Source: Mesorhizobium sp. 65-26 (GTDB lineage Bacteria > Pseudomonadota > Alphaproteobacteria > Rhizobiales > Rhizobiaceae). From it: a stretch of DNA of 55,032 bases. How positions within the stretch are numbered: position 1 is the first letter of the stretch; each line of letters starts with the position of its first letter. This document shows positions 23,800 through 53,752 of this stretch, piece by piece. The DNA is taken from contig MKVL01000018.1 in assembly GCA_001899205.1 (NCBI GenBank), positions 1-55,032 on the forward strand. The letters are read 5' to 3'. The notes below the pieces were generated by a model, which did no database searches, was not told where the DNA came from, and was given only the letters and a program-made list of their open reading frames with translations. Made by a program: the position numbers and the translations under genes.

Positions 23800-24879
23800 T
23801 CAGGCCAACGCCCGCTCGGCGCGCGCCAGGCCATGCACGACCAGCCGGTCGATGATCTCGGGGTAGCTTACCCCGCTTGCCGCCATGGCCTTGGAATACA
23901 TGCTGATGTCGGTGAAGCCGGGAATGGTGTTGAGCTCGTTGACGAGGATGCGCATCTCGGGCGTAACGAAGAAATCGACCCTGGCCATGCCGTCGCAGCC
24001 GAGGGCACGGAAGGCCCGCGCCGCGATGGAGCGCATCTCGCTTTCCACTTCGGCGGGCAGTTCCGCCGGCACCTTCAGAGCCGCGCCTTCGGCATCGACA
24101 TATTTTGCGTCATAGCTGTAGAAACCATGCCTGTCCGCTGGCACGATCTCGCCGGGCCGCGAGACGAAGAGGCCGCCCTCGGTGTCCTCCAGGACACTGC
24201 ATTCGATCTCCCGGCCGTTGATGAATTCCTCCGCCAGGAGCTTGCGGTCATGGCGGAAGGCTTCTGCCAGCGCCGCGCCGAATTCCTGGCTCGCCGACAC
24301 CTTTCTGACACCCACGGACGAGCCCTGGCGCGTCGGCTTGATGAACAAGGGCAGGCCGAGTTCGCCTTCCAGCTTCGCAAGGGCTGGAGCGTTCCCTTCG
24401 TGGATCGTCACCGAACGCGCCACCGGGAGCCCTGCAGCCTTCAGCAACTGCTTGGCGATGTCCTTGTCGAGCGCCGTCGCTGATCCGAGAATGCCACAGC
24501 CCGCCAGCGGGACGCGGGCCACCTCGGCAAGCCCCTGCACCGACCCGTCCTCGCCATTGAGGCCGTGCAGGACGGGAAACAGGATGTCGAGGTTCGCGAG
24601 AGATTCAGACGAGCCATCGGTCCGGATCGCTATCATCCGCCCCCTGCCGCCAGGGACGAGACAAATCTCGACGCCTGCCGACGGTGTCGCCAGGCGGCCG
24701 TCGTCATAGCTGCTCAGAAACCATTGTCCTTCGCGGGTGATGTATATCGGCACGGCGTCATATCGGGCCGGGTCGAGTGCCCGCATCACATTGGTCGCGG
24801 ACATAATCGAGACCTCGTGCTCGCTCGATCGGCCGCCAAACAGCACTGCAATGCGCAATCGGGTCGGCGATGCGGTCAT
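23800..24879 (-). CDS. ddl: D-alanine--D-alanine ligase (DdlA-like)
   Basis: 359-aa ATP-grasp ligase making the D-Ala-D-Ala dipeptide for peptidoglycan. Motifs: LFGGRSSEHEVSIMSA, LHGLNGEDGSVQG, KPTRQGSSVGV, the omega-loop DAKYVDAEG with the lysine-tyrosine pair of D-Ala-D-Ala enzymes, and NELNTIPGFT binding metal. It belongs to the longer DdlA type and is not in a mur/fts cluster, so it may be a second ligase. GGAGAG lies upstream of the ATG. Divergent from a GntR regulator, with a GntR-type operator between them, which suggests conditional expression. Confidence 0.93.
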   Translation of the reverse strand: MTASPTRLRIAVLFGGRSSEHEVSIMSATNVMRALDPARYDAVPIYITREGQWFLSSYDDGRLATPSAGVEICLVPGGRGRMIAIRTDGSSESLANLDILFPVLHGLNGEDGSVQGLAEVARVPLAGCGILGSATALDKDIAKQLLKAAGLPVARSVTIHEGNAPALAKLEGELGLPLFIKPTRQGSSVGVRKVSASQEFGAALAEAFRHDRKLLAEEFINGREIECSVLEDTEGGLFVSRPGEIVPADRHGFYSYDAKYVDAEGAALKVPAELPAEVESEMRSIAARAFRALGCDGMARVDFFVTPEMRILVNELNTIPGFTDISMYSKAMAASGVSYPEIIDRLVVHGLARAERALA

Positions 24880-24990: not shown

Positions 24991-25671
24991 ATGGACCGGC
25001 TGACGGGACTGACGAACGCGATCGCCGGAAGGCCTGAAACAGTGGCCGATCGGATATCGGCGATCTTGCGGGAAGCGATCGCCACAGGCGCCCTGCCCGC
25101 TGGCGCGGCGTTGCGGCAGGATGAGCTCGCGGCCCGCTTCGGCTTCAGCCGCATGCCTGTGCGCGATGCCTTGCGACAACTGGAGACGGAAGGGCTGGTC
25201 AGCATCCATCCGACCAAGGGGGCTTTCGTCGCCTCGATGGACCCCGCCGAAATCAGGGAAATCTTTGCGCTGCGCGAATTGCTCGAGGTCGAGGCGCTTC
25301 GGCTCTCCTGCCCGCTGCTCGACGCCGGAGTTCTGCGCAAGGCCGCCGACATGCTGGATCAAATCGACGGAGAGGCGAACGTTGCGCGCTGGGGCGCCCT
25401 GAACGCGGCTTTTCATCTGGCGCTGTACAGTCGGTGCGGCAACAGCCGCCTGCTGGCGGCGATCGAGGCCTACCATGGGGCTGTCGATCGCTATGTCCGC
25501 GTTCTGCTGTCGAACCTGGACTATCAGAGCCGGTCCCAGGCCGAACACCGGGACCTGTTGGCTGCCTGCTCCAACGGGGACGAAAAGAGGGCTGCGTCTA
25601 TCCTGCGTGGGCATCTGCGCACGGGTAGCGACATGCTGTTCGAGGCTGTCCGCGGGCGAATACGCTCTTGA
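24991..25671 (+). CDS. GntR-family transcriptional regulator (FadR/FCD subfamily)
   Basis: 226-aa repressor-type regulator. N-terminal winged helix: TVADRISAILREAIATGALP, then RQDELAARFGFSRMPVRDAL (about residues 44-63), then the wing GLVSIHPTKGAFVA. The C-terminal FCD effector domain follows (IREIFALRELLEVEALRL; later HLALYSRCGNSRL and AEHRDLL). Start at the ATG at 24991; the upstream open frame has no coding character. Divergent from ddl with a matching operator between the two genes, so it probably controls ddl and itself. The effector is unknown. Confidence 0.9.
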   Translation: MDRLTGLTNAIAGRPETVADRISAILREAIATGALPAGAALRQDELAARFGFSRMPVRDALRQLETEGLVSIHPTKGAFVASMDPAEIREIFALRELLEVEALRLSCPLLDAGVLRKAADMLDQIDGEANVARWGALNAAFHLALYSRCGNSRLLAAIEAYHGAVDRYVRVLLSNLDYQSRSQAEHRDLLAACSNGDEKRAASILRGHLRTGSDMLFEAVRGRIRS

Positions 25672-25764: not shown

Positions 25765-26076
25765 TCAGAGTTCGACGAAAACCGTGCCGGCCTCGATCCT
25801 TGCCGGATAGGTCCTGAGGTTGACGCAGGGCGGCAGGCGCTTGGCGACGCCAGTGCGATAGTCGAAGGCGCCTGCGTGCTTCGGACATTCGACCTCATAG
25901 TCCATGACCAGCCCCTCCGCGATGTGAACGGCCTCATGCGTGCAGAGTCCGTCGGTGCAGAACACCTCGTCATCGGGCGAGCGGAAGATCGCGTAGGTCC
26001 GACCGGCGTGGTCGAAGCGGCGGGCGCCTTCCTGTTCGATGTCGTCGAGGTCGCATGCCTTGATCCAGTCGGTCAT
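25765..26076 (-). CDS. MocE-like Rieske [2Fe-2S] ferredoxin
   Basis: 103-aa soluble Rieske ferredoxin that passes electrons to an oxygenase. Cluster ligands: C45-T-H47 and C64-P-K-H67 (LCTHE and CPKHAG), in the order CxH...CxxH. The start MTDWIKACDLDDIEQEG and the segment VNLRTYPARIEAG resemble MocE, the ferredoxin of rhizopine catabolism. AAGGAACGGAAG precedes the ATG. Last gene of a minus-strand cluster with a sugar-binding protein and a diiron sterol-desaturase-family hydroxylase, its likely electron acceptor. No dedicated ferredoxin reductase is encoded nearby. Confidence 0.9.
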   Translation of the reverse strand: MTDWIKACDLDDIEQEGARRFDHAGRTYAIFRSPDDEVFCTDGLCTHEAVHIAEGLVMDYEVECPKHAGAFDYRTGVAKRLPPCVNLRTYPARIEAGTVFVEL

Positions 26077-26116
26077 CTTCCGTTCCTTCGTTTGTGGCTC
26101 ATGTGTATCGACCGGT

Positions 26117-26148
26117 TCGATTTGGGCGAGCCACCTCCCCCAAATCGA
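26117..26148 (-). repeat. Intercistronic hairpin between binding-protein and ferredoxin genes
   Basis: A perfect 10-bp inverted repeat (TCGATTTGGG 26117-26126, CCCAAATCGA 26139-26148) with a 12-base loop lies 37 bases after the binding-protein stop. It has no T run on the minus strand. It probably stabilises the upstream message or limits read-through to the ferredoxin gene. Confidence 0.65.
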
Positions 26149-26184
26149 GGACGAGGAACCAGCAGGCGCCGGACGCCATCTGGC

Positions 26185-27132
26185 CTAGTTCTTGTTCAGG
26201 TACTCGGCCTCGTTCGCTGGCGTCACCAGTTCGAAGGGCACATAGACGACGCGGTCGACCTTTTCGCCCTTGGCGAGCGCGAGCGCCGCGTCGACACCGC
26301 CGCCGCCCTGCCCCTTGGCGTTCTGGAACACCGTCACCGAAAGCTCGCCGGCCTTCATCGCCTGCAGCCCGTCCTGCGTGGCGTCGATGCCGCCGACCAC
26401 CACGTTCTTCATGTCGACGCCGCCGGCCTTGAGCGCCAGGATGGCGCCGATGGCGGATTCATCGTTGTTGGCGATGACGGCATCGGGGGTCGCGCCCGCC
26501 GTCAGCCAGTTGGTCATCAGGTTCTGTGCGTTGTCGCGCGACCATTCCGACGATTGCTTGTCGGTGACCTTGATGAAGTTGCACATGTCGGTCGAAAAGA
26601 CCTGCTCGACATCCTTGGTGCGCTGCAGCGCGGCCTGATGCACCAGGCTGCCCATGACGATGTAGGCGGTGGCCTCTGAAGACTTGCCCCTCGCCCGCAA
26701 CAGCTTGCAGACCTCGAAGGCCTGCAGCGTGCCTGACTCGACCTCGTTCGAGCCGACATAGGCCTGCTTGTCCGGCAGGCTCTTCATGTCGGACGGTTCG
26801 AGGTTGACGAAAACCAGCGGAATGCCGGCCCTGGCGGCTTCCTCGCTGATGGTCTTGGAGGCGTTGGTGTCGACCAGCGTGACGATGATGCCGTCGACGC
26901 CGCTGGCGATGAAGTTCTTCACCTGGTCGAGTTGCTTGGCGACGTCGTTATGGGCGTCCTCGATCTGGATGTCGGCGCCCTTTTCCTTGGCACGAGCCTG
27001 CATGCCGTGCATCAGTAGCGTCTGGAAATTGTTGTCGAAGTCGACGATCGAGACCCCGAGCCTGGCGGCGAAGGCGCTGGCCGGCATCGACATAAGAGCG
27101 GCAATCGCCGTCGAGATGAGACGTTTCTTCAC
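26185..27132 (-). CDS. Periplasmic sugar-binding protein (rhizopine/ribose-binding type), orphan
   Basis: 315-aa type I periplasmic binding protein (Peripla_BP_4). GTG start with an excellent AAGGGAGGAA site, signal peptide over residues 1-23 (MKKRLISTAIAALMSMPASA). Typical segments: DFDNNFQTLLMHGM, DGIIVTLVDTNA, FVNLEPS and the hinge motif VIANNDESAIGAILAL, resembling inositol- and rhizopine-binding proteins (IbpA/MocB). No permease or ATPase gene is near, which is unusual for an importer component; it could serve a remote transporter or a signalling protein. Preceded by the hydroxylase gene and followed by the Rieske ferredoxin. Confidence 0.9.
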   Translation of the reverse strand: MKKRLISTAIAALMSMPASAFAARLGVSIVDFDNNFQTLLMHGMQARAKEKGADIQIEDAHNDVAKQLDQVKNFIASGVDGIIVTLVDTNASKTISEEAARAGIPLVFVNLEPSDMKSLPDKQAYVGSNEVESGTLQAFEVCKLLRARGKSSEATAYIVMGSLVHQAALQRTKDVEQVFSTDMCNFIKVTDKQSSEWSRDNAQNLMTNWLTAGATPDAVIANNDESAIGAILALKAGGVDMKNVVVGGIDATQDGLQAMKAGELSVTVFQNAKGQGGGGVDAALALAKGEKVDRVVYVPFELVTPANEAEYLNKN

Positions 27133-27203
27133 GGATTCCTCCCTTTCGGATGGAGTGCCGGTTCACCCCGTTTTCTTTCCGGCCCTTTCGGGATGGCTGG
27201 ATT

Positions 27204-27221
27204 GCTCGGCATGGGCCGAGC
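27204..27221 (-). repeat. Hairpin between hydroxylase and binding-protein genes
   Basis: GCTCGGC (27204-27210) and GCCGAGC (27215-27221) form a perfect 7-bp stem with an ATGG loop in the 115-base gap. Like the other intergenic hairpins of this cluster it lacks a T run. Confidence 0.5.
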
Positions 27222-27247
27222 GACTGGCTGTCAGGATGGGGCTGGCG

Positions 27248-28255
27248 TCATTTCGCGGCGGCGTTGGCGCGCTCGCGCTTCTTCTCGTAGCGCGCCTCCA
27301 TCAGCGCCTCGCCGTCCTTGCTGCCGTCGTGGAAAGTGCCGAACCACTTGTCGAACGGGATGAGGCCGTCGCCGTAATTCACCTCGAAATATTTGTGGTG
27401 GAGGTAGTGAATGTAGGCGTGGCTATCGACGCCGGCGTCCTCGGTCAGTTCCATCTTGTCGAAGCCGACATGGCCTGGAATGGCGCCGAATCCCGCATAG
27501 TGGAGCTGGTAGAGCGCCAGCAGCGGGTTCGACGGGATGATCAGGTGCCAGAAGGCGACGCCGAGGTAGCCGAGTTGCTCGACCGGGTGCATCGACAGCG
27601 ACGACCAGGGCGACGGGTTGACCGAATTGTGGTGCACCGAATGCACCCATTTGTAGAGCGGGCCCCAATGGATGGCGCGATGCAGCAGGAAGAAATGCGT
27701 CTCGTGGATGATCGGCACCACCAGCGCCAGCAGGAAGAGATAGACCGGGTGCTCGGCAAAGGTCAGCCACGGCACGTAGCCATTGGCATAGAGATGGAGG
27801 ATCACGACCTCGACTGCCGTCCAGATCGGCATGCCGGTGCCGAAGGTGCGCAGCATATTGTCGAGGTTCTGGTTCTCAAAGAAGAAGACTTTGTTCTTCT
27901 GCTCAGACGGCCATTTGCCATTGTATTTGAAGCGGTTGCCCTGTGCTTTAAAAGTATAGAGCCTGATCTCGAAAACCCCGAAGAAGACCAGCAGCGCGAC
28001 GGAGTTGACGATGAAGAGGCGCAGGATCCAGCCGACGGAGAGCGTCTTCATCGTCTCGACGTCGGGCAGCACGTAGCGCCACCACACCACGGCGGTGAGC
28101 GCAAAGAGCAGATTGTAGGGCAGGAAATAGTGAGGCAGCCATTTCAGCAGCGCCAGCGGGCGCGGCGGAAAGACGAAGAGCGGCGCGGTGCCGGCCGGTT
28201 CGTTGGGAGCCCAGTCGCCCCTCTTGTTGCGCTTGCCGAATTGCAGGTCATCCAT
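27248..28255 (-). CDS. Sterol desaturase / fatty acid hydroxylase family diiron membrane protein
   Basis: 335-aa integral membrane oxygenase (PF04116) that inserts oxygen or a double bond with a histidine-bound diiron centre. Histidine boxes: HETHFFLLHRAIH (residues 184-196), HSVHH (205-209) and HAYIHYLHH (279-287). About four hydrophobic segments (residues 40-63, 75-95, 143-160, 169-185). The ATG at 28255 is chosen: it is seven bases after the PanB-like stop with a TGAGGC leader, and longer starts run into that gene. Electron donor is probably the Rieske ferredoxin encoded downstream. Not the same family as MocD (which is a fatty acid desaturase type), so no symbol is given. Substrate unknown. 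Confidence 0.88.
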   Translation of the reverse strand: MDDLQFGKRNKRGDWAPNEPAGTAPLFVFPPRPLALLKWLPHYFLPYNLLFALTAVVWWRYVLPDVETMKTLSVGWILRLFIVNSVALLVFFGVFEIRLYTFKAQGNRFKYNGKWPSEQKNKVFFFENQNLDNMLRTFGTGMPIWTAVEVVILHLYANGYVPWLTFAEHPVYLFLLALVVPIIHETHFFLLHRAIHWGPLYKWVHSVHHNSVNPSPWSSLSMHPVEQLGYLGVAFWHLIIPSNPLLALYQLHYAGFGAIPGHVGFDKMELTEDAGVDSHAYIHYLHHKYFEVNYGDGLIPFDKWFGTFHDGSKDGEALMEARYEKKRERANAAAK

Positions 28256-28262
28256 GGTGGCC

Positions 28263-29054
28263 TCACAGGGGCTGAGACAGGCTGAGGAAGCGTTCATAGG
28301 CGGCATCGTCCATGTCCACCTGGTGCTTCGCTTCCGGATAGGTCCCGCCGGCGACGTCGCGGCCAAAGGCGCGGAAGGCGGCGATGCGCTTCTCCTGCAA
28401 TTCGGCTTCAAGCGTGACGAAGTCGGCATAGCGCTTGGCGTGGCGCGGGTAGTGGCCGGCGTGGGTGCCGAGCACGTCGCAGGAGAACAGATACTGCGTG
28501 TCGCAGGCCGCGCCGCAGCCCATGCCCATGGTGATCAACGGTGTCGAGCGCGTGATGTGCTCGGCCAACCTTACCGGCACGACCTCCACTTCGATGCATG
28601 CCGCACCTGCATTCTCCAGATCCTTGGCCGCGCGCAGCACCTTGAGAGCCTCTTCAGCCGTGCGTCCGATGGCGCGGAAATTCGTCCAGGTGGCCCTGTT
28701 GGGAACCAGGCCGACATGGCCTGTCACGGGAATTCCCTCGGCTGCCATGGCCTCAATGAAGCGCGGCGAATGCGACGAGTAGACCGCATCGGCGCCGCGC
28801 TTCATCATGGCGAAGCCCAGTCGCACCGCCTCGTCCGGCGAGGCGACCGCGCCATGCGGCATGCCGACCGAGAGGAACGCGTAGGGAGCCGCCTGGCGGA
28901 TGGCTTCAAGGTTGTGATCGGGTTCGCAGGAGAGGATGGCGATGTCGCAGGCAACGGCCGCCGCCGCTTCGGCCGGCGTGTCGACATGCAGCTGCAGCCA
29001 TTTGCGACTGCCCTTGGCGCTTTGCAGGTCGTAGGCCGTCAGCCGTCTCGCCAC
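28263..29054 (-). CDS. PanB-like protein lacking the ketopantoate hydroxymethyltransferase active site
   Basis: 263-aa protein of the PEP mutase/PanB superfamily. The C-terminal half clearly resembles 3-methyl-2-oxobutanoate hydroxymethyltransferase (GIPVTGHVGLVPN; EVEVVPVRLAEHIT; later CDVLGTHAGHYPRHAKRY). Against E. coli PanB from memory, the metal ligands Asp45 and Asp84 correspond to E44 and G64, Lys112 and Glu114 to Y92 and S94, while the catalytic Glu181 is kept as E157; about 20 residues between the first two sites are missing. It is therefore unlikely to make ketopantoate. GTG start behind GGGAGGA. Between a LacI regulator and a diiron hydroxylase gene, with a seven-base gap to the latter. 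Confidence 0.8.
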   Translation of the reverse strand: MARRLTAYDLQSAKGSRKWLQLHVDTPAEAAAAVACDIAILSCEPDHNLEAIRQAAPYAFLSVGMPHGAVASPDEAVRLGFAMMKRGADAVYSSHSPRFIEAMAAEGIPVTGHVGLVPNRATWTNFRAIGRTAEEALKVLRAAKDLENAGAACIEVEVVPVRLAEHITRSTPLITMGMGCGAACDTQYLFSCDVLGTHAGHYPRHAKRYADFVTLEAELQEKRIAAFRAFGRDVAGGTYPEAKHQVDMDDAAYERFLSLSQPL

Positions 29055-29087
29055 GTGTCATCCTCCCGTTTCACGAGGGGATAACAC

Positions 29088-29103
29088 CGCCCCTTGCGGG
29101 GCG
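29088..29103 (-). repeat. GC-rich hairpin between LacI and PanB-like genes
   Basis: CGCCCC (29088-29093) and GGGGCG (29098-29103) form a perfect stem with a TTGC loop, 25 bases after the regulator stop and upstream of the PanB-like ribosome-binding site. Confidence 0.45.
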
Positions 29104-29128
29104 CCGCTTGTTCCTTGATCAAATCAGA

Positions 29129-30133
29129 TCAAAGGTTCTCGGCGGTGAAGGTGATGAAGCGGATCGGCGGGTTTTCGACCGGCAGGTCGTGCAGGTTGAG
29201 CGCGGCGAGCACAAGGTCGATGGCGCGGCGCGCCTGTGCCTCCGGCGCCTGGTCGAGCACGACATCCATCGTGCCCTCCCGCAAGCCGCGCATGCTGCGC
29301 TCTGTAAGCTCATGGCCGATGAAGAAGATGTCGCTGCCTCTGGCGTGTTTGCGCAGCACCTCGTTGAGCGCCGTGTTGGCGCCGCCGGCATTGTAGAGCC
29401 CGGCAAGGTCGGGCCAGCGCTTCAGCGCTTCGTGCAACTGCTCGGCGTTGCGGTCGCCATCGTCGAAGCCGAACAGCGCGGCGATAGGCTCGAACTCCCG
29501 CCCCTCATCGATCAGGTAATCGAAAAAACCGCGCACGCGGTCGCGGTGGACACGGTAAATCTGGCTGTGGCAGAGTGCGACCACCTTGCCCGGCCGCCGC
29601 TGCATCTTCGCCATCAGCAGTCCCGCCATGCGGCCGGCGGCGTAATTGTCGATGCCGACATAGGCGCTTCTGGTGCCCGAGATCTGGGTGACGATCTGCA
29701 CGGTCGGGATGTTTTCCGCTTCGAGCTTGCGAAGCGCGGCGCTCACCTGCGGATGGTCAGGCGCGGCGAGTATGAGTGCGGCGCGCCGCGGATCAGGTTC
29801 CAGGATACGCTTGGCGATCGCAGCGGGATTAGCCTCGTCGAGGAAGGTGCGGTGGACAGCGATCGAACGGTCGAGCGTCGCTGCTATGCGTTCGAAGGCG
29901 CGGGAAAGCCGCGCGAAGAAGGTCGCGTCCGGCCTGACCAGGATCACCTCGATGCGGATCACGCCGCGATGTGCCTCCGGCAGCCGGCGCGGATAGTCCA
30001 GCGAACGCGCCGCCGCCACCACTTTCTCGACGGTCGCCGGTCGCACCCCGCCCCTGCCGTTCAGCACGCGTTCGACGGTCGCCGTGCCAACGCCGGCGCG
30101 GCGGGCTATCTCGAGGAAGGTGGGCTTTGAAAT
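29129..30133 (-). CDS. LacI-family transcriptional regulator with apparent ATT start
   Basis: Repressor with a LacI-type helix-turn-helix (FLEIARRAGVGTATVERVLN, residues 5-24) and a periplasmic-binding-protein-like effector domain (VILVRPDATFFARL; IPTVQIVTQISGTRSAYVGI; later LAGLYNAGGANTAL). No ATG, GTG or TTG lies in frame near the helix-turn-helix. The nearest is an ATG at 30247 that would add 38 odd residues. An ATT at 30133 directly before SKPTFLEI has GGGAG at good spacing and gives 334 aa, the normal family length, so a rare ATT start or a recent loss of ATG is inferred. Heads the PanB-like/hydroxylase/binding-protein/ferredoxin cluster. Confidence 0.8.
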   Translation of the reverse strand: MSKPTFLEIARRAGVGTATVERVLNGRGGVRPATVEKVVAAARSLDYPRRLPEAHRGVIRIEVILVRPDATFFARLSRAFERIAATLDRSIAVHRTFLDEANPAAIAKRILEPDPRRAALILAAPDHPQVSAALRKLEAENIPTVQIVTQISGTRSAYVGIDNYAAGRMAGLLMAKMQRRPGKVVALCHSQIYRVHRDRVRGFFDYLIDEGREFEPIAALFGFDDGDRNAEQLHEALKRWPDLAGLYNAGGANTALNEVLRKHARGSDIFFIGHELTERSMRGLREGTMDVVLDQAPEAQARRAIDLVLAALNLHDLPVENPPIRFITFTAENL

Positions 30134-52306: not shown

Positions 52307-53752
52307 TCATGCATTCAGCGCGCGACCATAGGCGTCGAGCACGCTTTCCTTCATCATCTCCGACAGCGTCGGATGTGGGAAGATCGTGTGCATCAACTCT
52401 TCCTCGGTTGTCTCGAGGTTCATCGCCACGACGAAGCCCTGGATGAGCTCGGTCACCTCGGCGCCGACCATGTGCGCGCCCAGCAACTGTCCCGTCTTCT
52501 TGTCGAAGATGGTCTTGATGAAGCCCTGATCCTCGCCGAGCGCGATGGCCTTGCCGTTGGCGGCGAACTGGAAGCGGCCGACGCGTATGTCCTTGCCCTC
52601 GGCCTTGGCCTTGGCTTCGGTCAGGCCGACGGAGGCAACCTGTGGGCTGCAATAGGTGCAGCCGGGGATCTTCAGCTTGTCGATGGCGTGCACGCCCGGG
52701 AAATTGGCGATCTTCTCGACGCAGACGACGCCCTCGTGCTCGGCCTTGTGGGCGAGCATCGGCGGGCCCGCGACATCGCCGATAGCGTATATGCCCGGCA
52801 CATTGGTCTTGCCGTAGCCATCGACGACGACACAGCCGCGTTCCGTCTTCACGCCGAGCGCCTCGAGACCGAGATTCTCGATATTGCCCTGCACGCCGAC
52901 GGCCGAAATCATGCGGTCGGCGGTGATCTTCTCGACCTTGCCGTCCTTCATCTCGACATGCGCCGTGACCGAGTTGGCGCCCTTCTCGACCTTGGTGACC
53001 TTGGCCTCGAGGATGATCTTCATGCCCTGCTTCTCGAACTGCCGCTGCGCGAATTTCGAGACCTCGGCGTCCTCCACGGGCATGACCTGAGGCAGAAGCT
53101 CGACCACGGTCACCTCGGCGCCCATCGTGCGATAGAAGGAGGCGAACTCGATGCCGATGGCGCCGGAGCCCATCACGAGGAGCGATTTCGGCATCTCCTT
53201 CGGCACCATCGCCTCGAAATAGGTCCAGATCAGCTTGCCGTCGGGCTCGATGCCGGGCAGCGCGCGCGGGCGGGCGCCGGTGGCGAGAATGATGTGCTTG
53301 GCCGTGTAGGTGCCCTCACCCTTGACGCCCTTTGGCACGGGCGGCTGCGGCTCCATCGGCTTCTTGGCGGTCTTGGAGACGACGATCTCACCGGGCTTCG
53401 TCAGCTTGGCCTCGCCCCAGATCACGTCGACCTTGTTCTTCTTCATCAGGAAGGAGATGCCGGCGTTGAGACGCAGTGAGACCTTGCGCGAGCGGTCGAC
53501 AACAGCGGCGGTGTCCGGGGTGACTTTGCCGTCGAGCTTCAGGCCGTAGTCCTTCAGATGATCGGAATAGTGCATGATCTCGGCCGAGCGCAGCAGTGCC
53601 TTGGTCGGAATGCAGCCCCAGTTGAGGCATATGCCCCCGAGATGCTCGCGTTCGACGATCGCGGTCTTGAAGCCGAGCTGGGCGGAGCGGACGGCCGTCA
53701 CATAGCCGCCAGGGCCGGAGCCGATGATGATGACGTCGTAGTTCTCAGCCAC
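52307..53752 (-). CDS. lpdA: Dihydrolipoyl dehydrogenase (E3)
   Basis: 481-aa FAD/NAD enzyme reoxidising dihydrolipoamide in 2-oxo-acid dehydrogenase complexes. FAD motif DVIIIGSGPGGYVTAVRSAQ, redox-active disulfide GGICLNWGCIPTKALL (C-x4-C), NAD motif VMGSGAIGIEFASFYRTMGA, and the C-terminal His-Glu pair in HTIFPHPTLSEMM. Placed downstream of pdhC and an SGNH hydrolase, so it is the E3 of the pyruvate dehydrogenase complex. Confidence 0.96.
   Translation of the reverse strand: MAENYDVIIIGSGPGGYVTAVRSAQLGFKTAIVEREHLGGICLNWGCIPTKALLRSAEIMHYSDHLKDYGLKLDGKVTPDTAAVVDRSRKVSLRLNAGISFLMKKNKVDVIWGEAKLTKPGEIVVSKTAKKPMEPQPPVPKGVKGEGTYTAKHIILATGARPRALPGIEPDGKLIWTYFEAMVPKEMPKSLLVMGSGAIGIEFASFYRTMGAEVTVVELLPQVMPVEDAEVSKFAQRQFEKQGMKIILEAKVTKVEKGANSVTAHVEMKDGKVEKITADRMISAVGVQGNIENLGLEALGVKTERGCVVVDGYGKTNVPGIYAIGDVAGPPMLAHKAEHEGVVCVEKIANFPGVHAIDKLKIPGCTYCSPQVASVGLTEAKAKAEGKDIRVGRFQFAANGKAIALGEDQGFIKTIFDKKTGQLLGAHMVGAEVTELIQGFVVAMNLETTEEELMHTIFPHPTLSEMMKESVLDAYGRALNA

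Follow-up and report, generated by a model that had tools for sequence, protein, structure and literature searches.

The window examined here is the whole 55,032-nucleotide stretch of contig MKVL01000018.1 from Mesorhizobium sp. 65-26 (genome of 6.84 Mb), and our analysis concerns an operon of five minus-strand genes within it (25765-30133) and, above all, the PanB-like protein (PanBL) encoded by its second gene. In order of transcription, the operon encodes a LacI-family regulator (29129-30133; LacI helix-turn-helix and Peripla_BP_4 ligand domain in Pfam, likely start codon ATT), PanBL (28263-29054; GTG start, Pantoate_transf PF02548 at 136 bits), a membrane diiron hydroxylase of the FA_hydroxylase superfamily (27248-28255; PF04116 at 62.7 bits, cut-off 31), a periplasmic sugar/cyclitol-binding protein of the ATP-binding cassette (ABC) type (26185-27132; Peripla_BP_4, PF13407), and a MocE-family Rieske [2Fe-2S] ferredoxin (25765-26076; TIGR02377 at 175.9 bits, cut-off 136.15), with intergenic gaps of 74, 7, 115, and 108 base pairs, respectively. 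A first-pass annotation of the window had listed five same-strand genes of these families, and all five proved to be complete, with one stop each, unbroken reading frames, and the expected domains. The ferredoxin shows a CxH...CxxH pattern and the hydroxylase carries histidine clusters (HETH, HRAIH, HSVHH, and HYLHH), which we take to be the iron ligands. The ferredoxin is the likely electron donor of the hydroxylase, for which we propose a role as an O-demethylase.

Conservation of the operon and co-occurrence of its genes

The operon is real and conserved. Among 15 close relatives, defined as loci whose PanBL is at least 88% identical to that of the window (L077-L090 and L093 in our locus numbering), the hydroxylase and a LacI of the window type were present in all, MocE within 6 kilobases (kb) in 14 (not L078), and the binding protein in 14 (not L080). 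All five families, whose co-occurrence the first-pass annotation had suggested checking, were found together in 13 of these loci. The top named matches of the window PanBL belong to Mesorhizobium.

PanBL was surveyed in 297 genomes of the order, where 40 of the 54 counted PanBL places were fetched, and a second set comprised the best 80 of 470 named loci from a scan of genome contigs; L034 and L094 are apparently one locus present in both sets. The control consisted of 20 true-PanB loci in genomes covered by the order survey. The weaker PanB-like matches of L237-L245 scored better against E. coli PanB and were hence counted as true PanB. Our neighbor counts rest on tblastn because some antisense open reading frames (ORFs) remained in the gene calls (e.g., L048). 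A diiron oxygenase of the FA_hydroxylase or FA_desaturase type, or else MocE, lay within 6 kb in 34/40 and 74/80 PanBL loci, and within the same distance of true PanB in 0/20 control loci. Counted singly, the oxygenase was near PanBL in 31/40 and 71/80 loci and MocE in 28/40 and 45/80. Across the 297 genomes, 26 had both MocE and PanBL, 16 had MocE only, 5 had PanBL only, and 250 had neither; on the strength of this co-occurrence and the neighbor counts, we reject a chance assembly of the five genes. Conversely, PanBL was found within 10 kb of 38 of the 66 MocE genes over the cut-off and of 12 of the 22 hydroxylase homologues (at least 48% identity). The association of PanBL with MocE and the oxygenases is strong, not obligate.

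PanBL and PanB

Public records annotate PanBL as ketopantoate hydroxymethyltransferase, which is probably a mis-annotation. The PanB fold itself is retained, as the 28 top Foldseek matches of the PanBL AlphaFold model (confidence score pLDDT 92.6, one weak loop) in the PDB were all PanB chains. However, the panB equivalog model TIGR00222, with a cut-off of 207.55, gives PanBL only 98.9 bits, and a true PanB over this cut-off is present elsewhere in the genome of the window. In our alignment, D84 and E114 of E. coli PanB are replaced in 85/85 PanBL; K112 is replaced by Tyr in 80/85, D45 is retained in 5/84 (full-length genes), and H136 and E181 are retained in 85/85. We take D45, D84, and E114 to be the metal ligands of PanB (the roles of its other residues are likewise assumed), and PanBL has lost this metal site. 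In a tree of 113 proteins, a fully supported branch splits 85 PanBL rows from 28 PanB rows. The tree comes from a quick search with SH-like approximate likelihood-ratio test (SH-aLRT) support only and contains long branches; its rows are 111 of 174 proteins kept after removing near-copies (at least 85% identity), plus E. coli PanB and the window protein, and most of L207-L218 and fragments below 215 residues were left out.

A member of this clade has very probably been tested already. According to PMC3082293, the second panB of Rhizobium etli (RHE_PE00443, plasmid p42e) keeps 5 of 12 active-site residues, lacks a detectable metal domain, and failed to rescue a panB mutant. The part of p42e that we analyzed (40 of 505 kb) contains one PanB-family gene, the last of a desaturase-MocE-FAD (flavin adenine dinucleotide) reductase-PanBL string divergent from LacI, and its product groups inside the PanBL clade; we strongly infer that it is RHE_PE00443. 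A role for PanBL as a second ketopantoate hydroxymethyltransferase in pantothenate synthesis, which the public annotation and the PanB fold would suggest, is so improbable in view of the sub-cut-off score, the lost metal ligands, the separate clade, the true PanB elsewhere in the genome, and the failed complementation that we reject it. By two tested features, PanBL does not classify as PanB.

Exchange of partner oxygenases

Beyond what the first-pass annotation had described, PanBL often accompanies moc-like clusters, and its partners span at least four oxygenase classes, namely fatty acid (FA) hydroxylase, FA desaturase/MocD-like, PhyH, and Rieske oxygenase. PhyH adjoins PanBL in L142 and L144 and lies one small ORF away in L132, and a Rieske oxygenase adjoins PanBL in L071 (all Pfam-confirmed); a fourth PhyH, in L150, was detected by tblastn only, and that locus contains a desaturase and MocE as well. 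When the rows whose partner is known are compared, the oxygenase class changes at least seven times on the tree, and the sister group of the PanBL subclade of the window consists of marine HIMB59/Pelagibacter-like rows with a desaturase. As PanBL is common to unrelated oxygenases, it probably acts on their shared product, and formaldehyde or its hemiacetal is a candidate for this product because oxidative demethylation by any oxygenase would yield it.

The marine loci (L103, L104, and L106-L123) come from single cells and metagenome-assembled genomes of streamlined HIMB59/Pelagibacter-like bacteria. Here, desaturase and PanBL genes form a pair, and the gene ahead of them encodes a small membrane protein, which in the one representative tested gave a weak match to DUF2269. 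L115 and L119 contain an additional PanBL that has a separate desaturase, MocF-like protein, and MocE, followed in L115 by a sugar-ABC ATPase. On the opposite strand upstream of PanBL, L104, L108, and L109 carry a gamma-butyrobetaine hydroxylase-like gene (TauD + GBBH-like_N) along with 3-hydroxyacyl-CoA dehydrogenase-like and Rieske ring-hydroxylase families, which hint at methylated-amine substrates there. In the desaturase-MocE-PanBL loci L207-L211 from the genus of the window, a putative aromatic amino acid (histidine) ammonia-lyase ORF, identified by eye, adjoins PanBL on the opposite strand. Plasmid p1 of Rhizobium lentis (L074, 10804-11151) has an ORF of 115 residues with a hydroxylase-like start and a MocE-like end, looking by eye like the product of an internal deletion that joined the two genes; the flanking PanBL, reductase, and PurU genes look intact.

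Folate genes and PanBL as an optional part

The first-pass annotation gave PanBL no role, and the neighboring FolD and PurU genes of some relatives point to folate one-carbon chemistry. PurU was found by tblastn within 10 kb of PanBL in 8 of 123 loci (within 3 kb in six of these) and FolD in 4 of 123, of which three lie within 1.2 kb and one, 8.8 kb off, is probably unrelated. Both genes were absent from the 20 true-PanB controls and from the 20 PanBL-free MocE loci examined, although contig ends shortened some of the latter. In L212, the reading frames of PanBL and a further PurU share four bases, and contiguous strings were seen in L125 (IolG-MocE-MocF-PurU-hydroxylase-PanBL-FolD) and L139 (PanBL-PurU-FolD). 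As L125, L127, and L129 are close kin, the counts overstate the number of independent folate-gene events.

A second cluster, on contig 5 of the genome of the window, holds PanBL, a MocF-like protein, MocE, a MocD-like desaturase, LacI, a binding protein that shares 61% identity with that of the window, and a true IolG. In L048, from this genome, PanBL ends a MocF-MocE-desaturase string, with LacI and the binding protein further on. At the same site, as set by one conserved neighbor gene matched by eye, three genomes of the genus (L247-L249) have MocF-MocE-desaturase-LacI without PanBL, and two of them (L248 and L249) also show the binding protein. The first-pass annotation had stated that moc enzymes are absent, which is correct for the window and does not extend to the contig 5 cluster or to relatives, where the same core is accompanied by MocF-type reductases. 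Plasmid pSymB of Sinorhizobium meliloti 2011 similarly carries LacI, desaturase, MocE, MocF, and PanBL; in a passage of PMC11387232, SM_b20817-20820 of S. meliloti 1021 are named LacI, mocD, mocE, and mocF.

The occurrence of one site with and without PanBL fits an add-on that rescues one-carbon (C1) units and argues against an essential step in substrate breakdown. This bears on the possibility that PanBL is a lyase or aldolase cleaving a C-C bond of the oxidised substrate, as in isocitrate-lyase/PEP-mutase (phosphoenolpyruvate mutase) barrels, rather than handling a C1 unit. The Foldseek matches that follow the PanB chains include methylisocitrate lyase and phosphonomutase folds, and the loss of the PanB metal ligands speaks for an altered chemistry. 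Nevertheless, the partners from four unrelated oxygenase classes and the adjoining FolD and PurU in some loci speak against such an enzyme, a mocDEF string that persists without PanBL would be odd for an essential substrate step, and we consider a lyase unlikely.

Binding protein and candidate substrates

The binding protein belongs to the ribose/galactose type, and its nearest solved chain is 4yo7 (E 2e-51), whose ligand is presumably myo-inositol. It scores below every NCBIfam cut-off listed, and homologues occur in other moc-like clusters. The first-pass description of this protein as of the inositol/rhizopine type therefore holds only in a loose sense, as its score against the rhizopine model is 36.6 bits (cut-off 420). 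A strict rhizopine (3-O-methyl-scyllo-inosamine) locus would explain the MocE ferredoxin over its family cut-off and the analogous oxygenase and binding protein. We consider it very improbable given this score and the oxygenase, which belongs to PF04116, as the first-pass annotation had recognized in assigning it to a family other than that of MocD; a MocD-type FA_desaturase is absent from the operon. By two tested features, the operon does not read as a rhizopine locus. In the 7 of 394 genomes with a rhizopine binding protein over the cut-off, MocE, the oxygenase, and PanBL were not found in the 13-20 kb fetched, and mocDEF may lie elsewhere; among these loci and one just below the cut-off, which likewise had none of the three, we saw a weak MocF-like match (L201) and a weak binding-protein match (L204).

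IolG over the TIGR04380 cut-off is present in L059, L065, and L125, in addition to the contig 5 cluster, and tblastn places IolG within 10 kb of PanBL in 11/123 loci, compared with 0/20 controls and 3/20 MocE loci without PanBL. Known substrates of the PF04116 family include fatty acids and sterols, and public records label proteins of the hydroxylase type as sterol desaturase family. Conceivably, the hydroxylase could thus add a hydroxyl to a carbon in the ring or chain of a lipid, sugar, or polyol instead of demethylating it, with PanBL or other enzymes processing the product. Such a role is rather doubtful, since the clusters hold sugar-type binding proteins, LacI regulators, and IolG, and since the same PanBL/MocE core occurs elsewhere with a MocD-like desaturase; FolD/PurU likewise speak against it.

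Our best guess for the substrate is O-methyl-inositols (e.g., pinitol and ononitol), which are favored by the IolG linkage and the literature on exudates, nodules, and FixV taken together, by analogy, as this literature concerns proteins other than those of the window. In PMC5789663, root exudate with pinitol as its most concentrated compound is reported to induce several R. mesoamericanum genes (mocDEF-like, iol, and ABC); the authors interpret this induction as rhizopine use. The same source describes a separate sterol-desaturase/FA-hydroxylase gene on symbiotic plasmids, with less than 40% identity to other orthologues, that was induced in three rhizobia on exposure to Mimosa root exudate. 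Pinitol and ononitol are reported in Lotus nodules and accumulate in legume nodules (a passage in PMC8730688), and FixV is described as a LacI regulator whose homologues flank mocDEF and whose proposed signal is an inositol derivative (a passage in PMC3538637).

Proposed mechanism

From the gene content, its conservation, the separate clade, the loss of the metal site, the swapping of oxygenases, and the FolD/PurU/IolG linkage in some relatives, all directly established, we infer the reactions, their order, and the substrate by way of gene neighborhoods and residues. Tentatively, and at somewhat under an even chance, the operon may be a LacI-controlled module for oxidative O-demethylation in which PanBL would pass the released C1 unit to tetrahydrofolate (THF). 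The binding protein would help to import a methylated sugar or cyclitol, with O-methyl-inositols (e.g., pinitol or ononitol) as the best guess. The diiron hydroxylase, receiving electrons via MocE and a MocF-type reductase encoded elsewhere, would convert the O-methyl group to RO-CH2OH, and PanBL would transfer the hydroxymethyl group or freed formaldehyde to THF, forming 5,10-methylene-THF in a step that would resemble PanB run in reverse but without a metal-bound keto acid. E. coli PanB is reported to accept free formaldehyde (a passage in PMC10127515). In relatives where they lie beside PanBL, FolD and PurU could convert 5,10-methylene-THF to formate and THF, and the released inositol could enter the iol route through IolG. 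The transfer of C1 units to folate is the best-supported idea for PanBL, judging from neighborhoods and residues. The first-pass idea that an oxygenase of a different family works here in a moc-like module for oxidation or demethylation holds up, and the first-pass interpretation as a whole is supported in part.

Several observations weigh against O-demethylation with C1 transfer by PanBL. ABC permease and ATPase genes are absent beside the binding-protein gene in the window, as is a convincing reductase gene anywhere in it; a weak MocF-like match at 52757-53293 (27% identity by tblastn) was not accepted as the reductase of the operon. PanBL was not found within 10 kb of 28/66 MocE genes and 10/22 hydroxylase homologues, pSymA of S. 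meliloti carries LacI-hydroxylase-MocE without PanBL, and the oxygenases sought were not found in the PanBL loci L037, L049, L052, L060, L072, L128, and L136. Linkage to FolD and PurU is rare and partly confined to close kin, and IolG, near only a minority of PanBL loci, is absent from the window. With the PanB metal ligands gone, the chemistry of PanBL may also be something else.

More broadly, and with similar caution, the PanBL clade could be a family that captures formaldehyde or its hemiacetal and forms methylene-THF, a folate counterpart of Fae that different demethylating oxygenases recruited repeatedly, in groups ranging from rhizobia to marine HIMB59/Pelagibacter-like bacteria and that, in the window, would serve an O-methyl-inositol demethylase. 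If so, a protein publicly annotated as a pantothenate enzyme has a different job, one that a passage in a review describes only as the spontaneous condensation of formaldehyde and THF (PMC8879981), and the genes of the operon become candidates for the utilization of pinitol and ononitol, which are methyl-inositols of legume nodules.

Start codon of the regulator and neighboring genes

Translation of the LacI regulator seems to begin at a non-canonical codon, its probable start being an ATT (30131-30133, minus strand) whose first base is position 30133. Across 19 loci with a LacI of the window type (the window, L077-L090, L093, L091, L092, and L131), the initiator position holds ATT in 15 and ATC in 4, and in 10 of the 19, ATG, GTG, and TTG are all absent between the upstream in-frame stop and the helix-turn-helix. 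Elsewhere, this position holds GTG (L073 and L252) or ATG (L253). The upstream regions aligned too poorly for footprinting of a LacI operator, and none is claimed. Beyond the 3' end of the operon lie a GntR/FCD regulator (24991-25671) and then a D-alanine--D-alanine ligase homologue (23800-24879, minus strand; NF002528 at 444 bits, cut-off 262).

Comparison with known systems

In the titles, abstract openings, and passages of the literature surveyed, we found no description of a PanB-like protein in demethylation, which does not prove its absence from print. PanBL shares with PanB the fold and the conserved His and Glu; it differs in the missing metal ligands, its own clade, and its other gene partners, and a homologue from the clade cannot replace panB. 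The proposed job of PanBL, speeding the capture of formaldehyde by a cofactor, resembles that of the formaldehyde-activating enzymes Fae and Gfa, which belong to other families, whereas the cofactor of PanBL would be THF. The mocDEF genes of rhizopine catabolism likewise join a membrane oxygenase to a MocE-family ferredoxin and a sugar-type binding protein, with an inositol derivative as the likely substrate class, but the operon has an FA_hydroxylase oxygenase and PanBL, no adjoining reductase gene, and a non-rhizopine binding protein. The LacI-mocDEF-type clusters of R. etli p42e and S. meliloti pSymB end in a PanBL gene. In the fixV/LacI-mocDEF clusters of rhizobia, described in a passage of PMC3538637 (the main text of which has no match to 'panB'), LacI also adjoins a moc-type oxygenase set. 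Those clusters have a desaturase-type oxygenase and a divergent LacI, whereas the operon has an FA_hydroxylase and a co-directional LacI.

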